Shown: in pieces, positions 25,285 through 28,273 of the stretch
Position numbering within the stretch: the stretch's first letter is position 1
Layout: each line of letters begins with the position of its first letter
Assembly: GCF_015207375.1 (NCBI RefSeq)
Contig: NZ_JADEWY010000060.1
Coordinates: 1-38,059, forward strand
Direction of reading: 5' to 3'
Source of the DNA: Coleofasciculus sp. LEGE 07092
Lineage (GTDB): Bacteria; Cyanobacteriota; Cyanobacteriia; Cyanobacteriales; Coleofasciculaceae
DNA: 38,059 nucleotides
Notes under the pieces: model-generated
What the model was told of the DNA's origin: nothing
Database searches by the model: none
Seen by the model: only the letters and a program-made list of their open reading frames with translations
Made by a program: the position numbers and the translations under genes

Positions 25285-26082
25285 TTATTCCTGAAGTTTT
25301 GACACATCAAACACGGCATTTGTCAAGTCAGCGCCTTTAAACGAAGTTCCCGAAAAACTTCTAATGTCTCTGGCAACGAAGGTAAGGGAGTTCATCGTCA
25401 GTCTGAGAAAACCTAAAGATAGGATGCCCCAGACAACTCCCCCTACCAGTTTTTGCACACTTAAAAACGCGATCGCTATTGTTCCAACTAAAAATGCAAA
25501 CCCATACCCCGCTACAGCCCCAGCAACTGAAACGGCAACGGCGACTAACCTATTTCTAGCTCTAAAACTGATAACCGCCATTACCATTCCACCCAGCACC
25601 GCCGCCGCAGTTGCGATTTGTGGGTTGTTCCCTGTGGTGCTTCCTCCATAGAAGAAACCGAGTAAAGCGCCGGACGCCGTTCCAGACATCACCGTTGCTA
25701 TCCGTCCGGCAATAGACTTGGTGCCAGTGATACCCCTAATTCCTGAGCCTACCCCGGCAATACCCATACTTATATATAAAGCTAGAATATAAGCCCAAGC
25801 GGGTTCTCCGGGAGTCCGACCCAAAGAACCGAAAATCATACGAGCGATCGCATCTACTGCTAATAACGCCACGACGACTGCAACCCCTACTACAGTTATG
25901 AACTGTCGGGGCGTTTGACCGACTTTGACTCGCTCAAAGTTAGCTCCCTGCAATGAAGCATAGCTAAAATCACAACCTCGAATATCCGAACCACTGAAGT
26001 CTGCACCGTTGAGGTTTTGACCTTTGAACGAGTGGTTGCGTAAGTCTTGGTTAGCAAACTTGAGAGGGTGCGAATGGAGCAT
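25285..26082 (-). CDS. pentapeptide-repeat membrane protein
   Basis: The protein (265 aa from the ATG at 26082) begins with a pentapeptide-repeat stretch (about 8-55: FANQDLRNHSFKGQNLNGAD and on), then several hydrophobic segments (about 65-225, glycine-rich) and ends with a second short pentapeptide stretch (FKGADLTNAVFD). Pentapeptide repeats fold as a quadrilateral beta-helix; here they seem to cap a membrane domain on both sides. No catalytic motif is visible. A GTG at 26118 would add 12 residues; neither start has a ribosome site, and the ATG is closer to family style. The chosen ATG overlaps the start of the glycosidase pseudogene on the other strand. Function unknown. Confidence 0.85.
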   Translation of the reverse strand: MLHSHPLKFANQDLRNHSFKGQNLNGADFSGSDIRGCDFSYASLQGANFERVKVGQTPRQFITVVGVAVVVALLAVDAIARMIFGSLGRTPGEPAWAYILALYISMGIAGVGSGIRGITGTKSIAGRIATVMSGTASGALLGFFYGGSTTGNNPQIATAAAVLGGMVMAVISFRARNRLVAVAVSVAGAVAGYGFAFLVGTIAIAFLSVQKLVGGVVWGILSLGFLRLTMNSLTFVARDIRSFSGTSFKGADLTNAVFDVSKLQE

Positions 26083-26851
26083 GAGTACAGGAAAATGAAT
26101 CACCGATACCGGATTCACTGGAAGCGATTTTTGGTCATTGCTGGAATGGGCGTATTGGCAGTACCACTGATACTCTACAGCAGGCTACATATCCTACGTC
26201 CACTCCAGACGAATGTAGAGCAAGTGCTGTTTCAAGGGATTGTTTACAAACGGGATATCCGGTTATCATCCCGCCCAATTGCGATTCATATCGTCACCGT
26301 TGACTTGACGACACCGGGAGTTAAAGCGTTCGTCACCCCAGGAACGCCAACTCCAGACGAGATGGAAACGACTGCACGGACTACATCAGAATTTGTCAGG
26401 GAGTTTAAACTGCAATTGGCAATCAATGGTAACTTCTTCTATCCCTTCCGCGAACAGACTCCTTGGGACTACTATCCTCACAGTGGCGATCGCACAAATG
26501 TGGTAGGACAAGCTATCTCGAATGGATACCGTTACTCGCCGCCTCAAGCGAACTGGCCCGTGTTGTGCTTTTTAGAGAGCGATCGCGCCCAAATCGTTGA
26601 ACGGGGAGAATGTCCAGAGGGTACAATGCAAGCGGTTGCAGGTAACAGTATTTTTATTAACCGTGGCGATCGGGTAACTGCAAGTTTCTCCGGGCATGGC
26701 AATGATAAACCCTATTCACGGATAGCAGTAGCCCTTGATAAAGAGGGGCAGAAATTGTGACTCCTTCGCTGTAGATGGTAAGCAACCCCTCTACAGCGAA
26801 GGAGTCACTCTGGCTGAGTTAGCGGAGATTGTACTTGAATTAGGCGCTTAT
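26074..26851 (+). pseudogene. phosphodiester glycosidase family protein, frameshifted and 3'-truncated
   Basis: The intact part (26074-26760, about 228 aa) has an N-terminal membrane anchor (about 12-32) and a NAGPA/phosphodiester glycosidase domain (IHIVTVDLTTPGVKAFVTP, AINGNFFYPF). The frame ends at TGA 26758-26760. Family-like sequence resumes in the +1 frame from 26771 ([27 protein letters not shown]) and stops being recognisable at about 26851, where the queA 3' end begins. The conserved C-terminal LDGGGS segment is missing. One shift and a deletion therefore both affect it. An ATG at 26074 with GAGAGG before it is preferred over a TTG at 26047. The protein may still be made in truncated form, but is unlikely to be active. 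Confidence 0.85.
26758..26807. repeat. perfect 18-bp inverted repeat at the frameshift
   Basis: Arms 26758-26775 (tgactccttcgctgtaga) and 26790-26807 (tctacagcgaaggagtca) flank a 14-base loop. The left arm starts on the stop codon that ends the glycosidase frame. The right arm encodes conserved YSEGVT-type residues in the shifted frame, so the left arm is likely the new sequence. No T-run follows, though it could act as a bidirectional barrier between converging genes. Confidence 0.95.
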
Positions 26852-28056
26852 ATAGCATTTCCTAGGCGAGCTTCTGGCAAAATTAACATAGCATCACCAA
26901 AAGAATAAAAACGATAATCGCAAGCGATCGCTTCTCGATACAAATCCAGCAAGCGCTGACGCCCAATTAAGGCACTAACCAGCATCAACAAGGTAGAGCG
27001 CGGTAAATGGAAGTTAGTAATCAACCCCTCCACCACTCGCCACTGATAGCCTGGATAGATAAACAATTCCGTCTTGCCACAATACGGCTGTAATTCTCCA
27101 CCCGCAGCAGCTCCCTCCAAAGCTCGTACCACCGTTGTTCCTACCGCAATCACTCGTCCTCCCGACGCTTGAGTTGCCCGAATTTTTTCTACTGTTGATG
27201 GAGGAACTTCTAGCCACTCGCTATGCATTTGGTGATGGGTAACATCCTCTATCTCCACCGGTCGAAACGTACCGACACCAACGTGCAACGTTACTGACGC
27301 CTGCTGAATTCCCCGTTCGCGGCACTCTTTTAATAACTCTGGCGTGAAATGGAGTCCAGCCGTGGGAGCTGCAACTGCGCCCGGTACTTGAGCGTACACT
27401 GTTTGATACTGTTCCGGGGTGGCTTGCGTGTTAGTAATGTAGGGGGGTAAGGGAATTTGCCCGTAGTGTGCTAACAACGTTGTTAGAGACAAGCCGATGG
27501 GTATGTCGAACTGCAACAGACGCCCGCTCGTCGCTTCATCTCGTGCCACAACCGTCGCTGTGATGGGGAGGGGTGAAGAAGTTTCCTGATTCCCTAATGG
27601 GGAAGATTCAACGGGTTGGTGCGGTTCAAATAAAATCGTCGAACCGACTTTGAGACGCCTACCCGGTTTCACAAGAGCCAGCCAACAATTGGGTTGTCGT
27701 TCCTCTAACAGCAGTACTTCTACTGGCACACCCGTCGATTTGCGACCATAGAGTCGAGCTGGAATAACGCGGGTGTTATTGAGAACGAGCAAGTCCTTTG
27801 GCTTGAGTAGCTGTAGTAGATCCCGAAAAATACAGTGCTGGTGATGAGTTGGGGAATCTATGACCAATAAACGAGAGCTATCTCGGTGCAAGAGTGGGGT
27901 TTGAGCAATCTGCTCTTCTGGTAATTCATAGTCGTAGCTCGAGAGCAAGCGATCTATCTGCGAATTCGGGTTTCCCAGCGCTTCCGAGTCTTTACCAGTT
28001 TCTAAACTACCGGCTACTGCTATAGAGAGTTCTGAGTTTTGAGATTGGGCATCCAT
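26848..28056 (-). CDS. queA: S-adenosylmethionine:tRNA ribosyltransferase-isomerase
   Basis: QueA transfers and isomerises the ribosyl part of SAM onto 7-aminomethyl-7-deazaguanine in tRNA to give epoxyqueuosine, a step of queuosine synthesis in the cytoplasm. Signatures are clear: [73 protein letters not shown] and [30 protein letters not shown]. The first 35 or so residues before LSSYDYEL are extra and polar, and the C terminus has a short extension (PEARLGNAI) that lies where the decayed glycosidase gene used to continue. A TTG at 28077 is possible; the ATG at 28056 is preferred. Neighbours are unrelated to queuosine, as is usual in cyanobacteria. Confidence 0.96.
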
Positions 28057-28273
28057 TGGCTCACAGTCTGGGTTCAATTCCTGTCATCCCGCTATTCTAC
28101 TGGGCAAGCCTTGACTCAACTGACTGAAAAAAGTGTTCCACATATTAGCTCTGAAGATTAAATATGGGTATATCCCCTATTCCACATCGGGGGCTTCTCC
28201 CCTAACACTCAGGGGTATAGTCTTGCCACAATGAAGGTATAGCACTTCCTTGGACTCCACCCCAAGCATCTCT

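Follow-up and report, generated by a model that had tools for sequence, protein, structure and literature searches.

In the 38,059-nucleotide stretch of the Coleofasciculus sp. LEGE 07092 genome analysed here (the window), the reading frame of a phosphodiester glycosidase gene ends at a TGA (26758-26760, + strand) that begins at the second base of the left arm of a perfect inverted repeat, and beyond this stop the coding sequence carries on in the +1 frame. A single quasipalindrome template switch is very probably the best account of this arrangement, explaining the stop, the frameshift and the palindrome together. Comparison with homologues suggests that it was one event, that the right arm of the repeat templated the left, and where along the sequence the polymerase would have switched.

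The inverted repeat in the glycosidase remnant

The broken gene is a member of the NAGPA family (phosphodiester glycosidase, PF09992). Its 5' part occupies 26095..26757 on the + strand and stays open until the TGA, the mechanically called open reading frame starting at a TTG at 26047. The region 26083-26757 matches the Pfam NAGPA/PF09992 profile with 27.2 bits, just above the gathering score of 25, and NCBIfam returned no match for this part, nor for the Trichocoleus protein (L019) to which it is 61% identical over 223 residues; the solved structures 3ohg (DUF2233) and 6ozd are relatives by sequence. The 3' part follows in the +1 frame at 26768..26859 (+ strand) and ends in ...ELGAYIA, where homology ceases, a limit that was set by eye and is good to a few bases. 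The last ~50 codons are missing, with the loss located at the junction with the neighboring queA gene, and they include the DGGGS motif found near the C-terminus of the NAGPA/DUF2233 family, which we take to have a catalytic role. Judged from its sequence, the locus is a remnant rather than a working family member, and a complete glycosidase is no longer encoded there. What is left of the gene is well preserved, in that the 5' and 3' parts together keep 48 of 49 conserved columns, a single deviation where 35 homologues show 0-5 deviations in 47-51 columns, and no further stop or frameshift occurs in the remaining 750 sites. An orphan 3' end was not found elsewhere in the genome at E values up to 10, the only matches being the remnant itself and a paralogue on contig C248, with an open frame of 674 codons, which is the sole other genomic match for the tail. 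Translocation of the 3' end instead of its loss was dropped as an explanation, the tail being found nowhere except in this paralogue.

In the assembled sequence of the window, the inverted repeat has 19-bp arms, a 14-nt loop and 19/19 pairs. The left arm, GTGACTCCTTCGCTGTAGA (26757-26775, + strand), is the exact reverse complement of the right arm (26790-26808, + strand), which reads L-Y-S-E-G-V-T in the +1 frame and is the putative template. The distal 11 nt of the left arm (26757-26767, + strand) would be the copied tract, while its loop-proximal part, GCTGTAGA (26768-26775, + strand), is native and identical in the homologues L004 and L019. The loop, TGGTAAGCAACCCC (26776-26789, + strand), is also native coding sequence and supplies, in the +1 frame, the last base of D, then G-K-Q-P, then the first base of L. 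We searched the window together with 20 other stretches, 345,486 bases or ~5% of the 6.71-Mb genome, for perfect inverted repeats with loops of up to 30 nt, and none was longer than this one. Since the window was selected for this repeat, the other stretches are the comparison that counts, and in their 307,427 bases the longest perfect inverted repeat has 17 bp and six have at least 14 bp. The 19-mer arm has no second copy in the 6.71-Mb genome at up to 3 mismatches (a backwards control pattern gave one match), so the repeat is not dispersed. As a separate observation, two perfect inverted repeats elsewhere in this genome (L081:3726-3762 and L070:767-795) have a common core like ATCCC(C)GACTTCT and perhaps belong to a dispersed palindromic repeat family.

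Homologues were used to establish what the site looks like in other genomes. At the DNA level the matches in relatives have 66-86% identity and differ widely in length, and at the site itself the comparison is with homologues ~70% identical in DNA that are not of the same genus. We compiled 37 distinct homologous segments with a search pattern that left the stop position free; an earlier set of 35 segments had been collected with a pattern that allowed only W or M there. Duplicate DNA segments were collapsed, loci of the window's own genome (the paralogue locus L085 among them) were excluded from both counts, and chance matches in two own-genome stretches (L076, L083) were discarded from the 35-segment count. 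The segment pattern required DGGGS, and copies without an in-frame DGGGS would escape these counts; L016 (genome G050) and L093 (G190) were left out for want of a DGGGS segment, and the 37 segments include two from loci L092 and L094.

All 37 segments have one open frame across the site, typically KLWL(I/V)(A/V)(V/I)DGKQP(L/F)YSEGV. Opposite the window's TGA, 36 of them carry TGG and the remaining one ATG, and neither a palindrome nor a stop was found at the site in any of the 37, the longest inverted repeat in the 60 bases being 8 bp. The right-arm residues Y, S and G are present in every one of the 35 segments of the earlier set and E in 34, although the pattern did not require them. At the next-but-one codon after the stop site, ATT predominates (28/37), followed by GTT (6/37), CTT (2/37) and TTC (1/37), and among the six rows nearest in the tree L004, L019, L005, L008 and L010 have ATT and L042 has GTT. 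The nearest relatives are L004 and L019, a placement with modest tree support (83/67) within a six-row fork that is weakly supported. Both read CTC TGG CTA ATT GCT GTA GAT at the site, where GCT GTA GAT is the same in the window and most bases before GCTGTAGA differ. Set against the family, the left arm has a G to A change in the Trp codon, an A to C change in the Ile codon and an additional C, its distal 11 nt standing for ~10 nt in the homologues. All three changes bring the left arm into complementarity with the right, a pattern characteristic of template-switch correction at quasipalindromes, and the net gain is one base.

These comparisons sustain much of what a first-pass annotation, made from the window's sequence alone, had proposed for the site. 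The glycosidase frame does end at the TGA at 26758, in a place where each of the 37 homologous segments is open, and the right arm does encode family-conserved residues in the +1 frame. The inverted repeat at the TGA is real, but its exact arms are 19 bp long and not 18 as claimed. The statement that the left arm has no family counterpart is true of the distal 11 nt and wrong for GCTGTAGA, which L004 and L019 share. The further idea that one strand switch could explain both the stop and the frameshift agrees with the templated differences of the left arm and their net one-base gain. It had also been predicted that intact relatives would have about one base less across the left arm, with only the loop-proximal part ancestral, and the alignment with homologues ~70% identical is consistent with this, with ~10 nt in the family for the window's 11 and GCTGTAGA common to the nearest relatives. 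At the divergence available, no intact relative with the same left arm occurs among the 37 segments.

Template switching and separate mutations

If a template switch gave rise to the repeat, the prior state would have been a short inverted repeat, GCTGTAGA...TCTACAGC, whose two halves encode A-V-D and L-Y-S. A polymerase replicating this region would then have switched templates and synthesised the left-arm position as a copy of the right arm. In an intramolecular version of this step, the nascent minus strand would fold back on its own TCTACAGC and extend along the right-arm copy, and an inter-strand version would lead to the same product. With a return to the normal template at or near the GTG at 26757-26759, about 10 native bases would have been swapped for 11 copied ones, so that the TGA, the +1 frameshift and the perfect 19-bp palindrome would all have appeared together. 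We infer the ancestral bases at the site, because the homologues are only ~70% identical in DNA, and the right arm is taken as ancestral because the conserved residues are still encoded there. The exact TCTACAGC partner of GCTGTAGA is absent from L004 and L019, the latter having CTTTATAGC, and since the right arm of these nearest relatives mismatches GCTGTAGA, the native 8-bp stem is proposed for the window's lineage only.

The strength of this case can be put in numbers only under assumed rates. With indels assumed to be 10 to 30 times rarer than substitutions, the 750 sites bound the neutral divergence since the death of the gene at ~0.03-0.06 substitutions per site. In a conditional model that takes the stem as ancestral, the point-event route has a likelihood of 4.5e-11 to 3.6e-8, and switching wins if the hairpin switch rate is greater than 9e-9 to 1e-6 of the substitution rate of one site; the codon weights of this model were set by hand after the homologue comparison, and its result is to be read as a conditional threshold. 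Independent hits are improbable because two or three of them fall within ten bases and all match the other arm. A wider model drew the ancestor from all 35 segments and used undirected switching, with equal weight on each of 3,000 geometries. Depending on the rates and the divergence assumed, its Bayes factor varies between 0.002 and ~1,000; for the two lower divergences the bottom of this range rises to 0.08. Given this range, the conclusion rests on hairpin-directed switching being frequent, as well as on ATT, the codon that five of the six nearest rows have, being ancestral. Hotspots at quasipalindromes are described in general terms in the E. coli papers, and no rate was taken from them.

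The main competing explanation is that two or three independent point events (TGG to TGA, insertion of a C and perhaps a third substitution) happened to perfect the palindrome. If the ancestor had CTT or TTC, the rarest codons among the 37 segments, then just one substitution and one insertion would be needed, and the wider model does favor point events where undirected switching is combined with high divergence, the setting in which the Bayes factor falls to 0.002. On the other hand, with ATT in five of the six nearest rows the route needs three events, every one of them matching the right arm, in a remnant whose other 750 sites have acquired no stop or frameshift, and under the conditional model it wins only if the hairpin switches at a rate below roughly one millionth of that at which a single site is substituted. 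We consider it improbable that separate mutations made the repeat. A palindrome could also arise if a small mobile palindromic element inserted at the site. Such elements typically have perfect inverted repeats with a small loop between them, and the common core of the L081 and L070 repeats hints that this genome may hold some, but the right arm and the loop are native coding sequence in the homologues and the arm is single-copy. A dispersed palindromic element was rejected on these two grounds, and an insertion has next to no chance of being the right explanation. A quasipalindrome template switch remains the reading that we prefer.

Relation to known quasipalindrome mutations

Work in E. coli describes quasipalindromes as mutational hotspots at which the changes universally make the palindrome perfect (PMC6357072), and loss-of-function cases of template switching are given for T4 rII, E. 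coli rpsL and thyA, and yeast CYC1 (PMC8604942). The event proposed here resembles the quasipalindrome template switches of the Ripley model, such as the E. coli thyA hotspot and lacZ QP5/QP6, in that one arm templates the other and the palindrome is perfected, and it resembles Ripley-model cases again in joining a frameshift and clustered changes in one event (PMC7202029, PMC6357072). Unlike the E. coli reporters, it concerns a natural difference in a cyanobacterium, deduced from homologues and not observed as it happened, and its native stem would have had 8 bp, as against the 18 bp of the laboratory quasipalindrome. Homogenisation of arms within coding sequence has likewise been read from phylogeny among S. 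cerevisiae strains (39 genes), although the changes there are nonsynonymous, whereas here they comprise a stop and a frameshift in a pseudogene (PMC8604942). The perfect stem from a single event is shared with the cases of Monttinen and Loytynoja (2022), which are hairpins in RNA genes (PMC8794818), while a role of the present hairpin in the queA transcript is conjecture. The short-range template switches of great apes (four-point model) have the same event geometry, but that work offers genome-wide primate statistics and the present one a single bacterial pseudogene; conversions from near-perfect to perfect repeats are often classed as non-significant by the great-ape method (PMC7954356).

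Judged by titles and the starts of abstracts, the few papers found on quasipalindromes and pseudogenes include no report of a template-switch pseudogene. Knowledge of quasipalindrome switching comes mainly from E. coli, phage and yeast, where it has been studied with reporters and at hotspots. Mutations of this type are familiar, and the case leaves the general view of the template-switch mechanism unchanged; what the window adds is a clean natural example in a cyanobacterium. It illustrates how a gene can be broken by one event that resembles three mutations, which suggests that counts of "independent" lesions in pseudogenes may be inflated, and it suggests further that a conserved protein motif (A-V-D...L-Y-S) is able to carry the seed stem.

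The queA junction and the neighboring genes

Downstream of the repeat, queA (26848..28077, - strand; PF02547 match) is convergent with the glycosidase remnant and abuts it (26840-26870), its stop codon TAA (26848-26850) lying inside the antisense of the remnant. The last codons of queA are unlike those of 11 relatives, whose own ends vary too, and a fusion may have supplied queA with its last codons and stop from the antisense of the remnant. In genomes G006 and G005 a TPR gene comes after queA, and its best match in the window's genome is intact on another contig (C138:14721-15827; 55% identity, with the query from G006); neither queA nor a glycosidase tail was found in the 1.5 kb before this gene.

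The loss at this junction bears on the time at which the palindrome was formed. Its description in the first-pass annotation as the "killer mutation" of the gene is not supported, since the 3' loss, which took the last ~50 codons and DGGGS with it, is a second lesion that may have been the earlier one. Either lesion alone, the palindrome event or the 3' loss, is enough to break the gene. We therefore give about even chances to a history in which the template switch was real but came after death, the 3' end having been lost first at the queA junction, a history that competes with the "killer mutation" label alone. It would fit with a 3' end that is missing from the locus and has only the C248 paralogue as another match in the genome, and with deletion-type losses elsewhere; the sequence, however, gives no order of lesions, and the clean remainder fits both orders. 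Within the order, the glycosidase has a match at E 1e-20 in 63 of 243 genomes, the window's own included, and among the matches listed stops lie inside the copies of G000, G190 and G178. Deletion or truncation breaks the copies in G190 and G178 and the second copy in G015 (L093, L092 and L094, respectively), all without a palindrome. Because broken copies occur in other genomes of the order, the gene appears to be lost now and then, and it seems to be dispensable.

The palindrome may also be considered from the side of queA, in whose transcript the repeat starts 39 nt past the stop codon. The hairpin there has a predicted folding energy of -40.7 kcal/mol for 66 nt (z -9.5). When hairpins of up to 60 nt were sought in the 150 nt that follow queA in 10 relatives, the best of each lay between -8.6 and -27.0 kcal/mol. 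If queA lost its own 3' end in the fusion, then the hairpin could have been retained for serving queA, by ending or protecting its mRNA, and a fold stronger than the best post-queA hairpins of those relatives would be in keeping with such a role. The stability, however, follows from the palindrome itself, there is no T run past the stem, and the hairpin is missing from the output of the terminator scan, which with its loop limit of 8 would probably have passed over it in any case; on balance, retention for this purpose is unlikely. There is a slim chance that the whole history was of this kind, with a rearrangement that fused queA to the glycosidase tail and removed the 3' end of queA, followed by one template switch in the already dead gene that made a new 3'-end hairpin. 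If true, a replication error would have built a regulatory RNA element in one step.

On the upstream side, a divergent pentapeptide-repeat gene (25285..26118, - strand; an open frame with an ATG at 26082) adjoins the glycosidase, as it does in relatives too. The gap between the start codons of the two genes is 12 bp in the window versus 245 bp in Trichocoleus. A lost promoter region was considered as a third lesion and rejected, since the same-family loci L008 and L010 also have only 27 bp. The divergent pair of a pentapeptide-repeat gene and a NAGPA-family gene recurs in relatives, at a spacing of 12-27 bp in the window and in two genomes of the same family, and a functional link between the pentapeptide-repeat protein and the NAGPA-family protein is possible.
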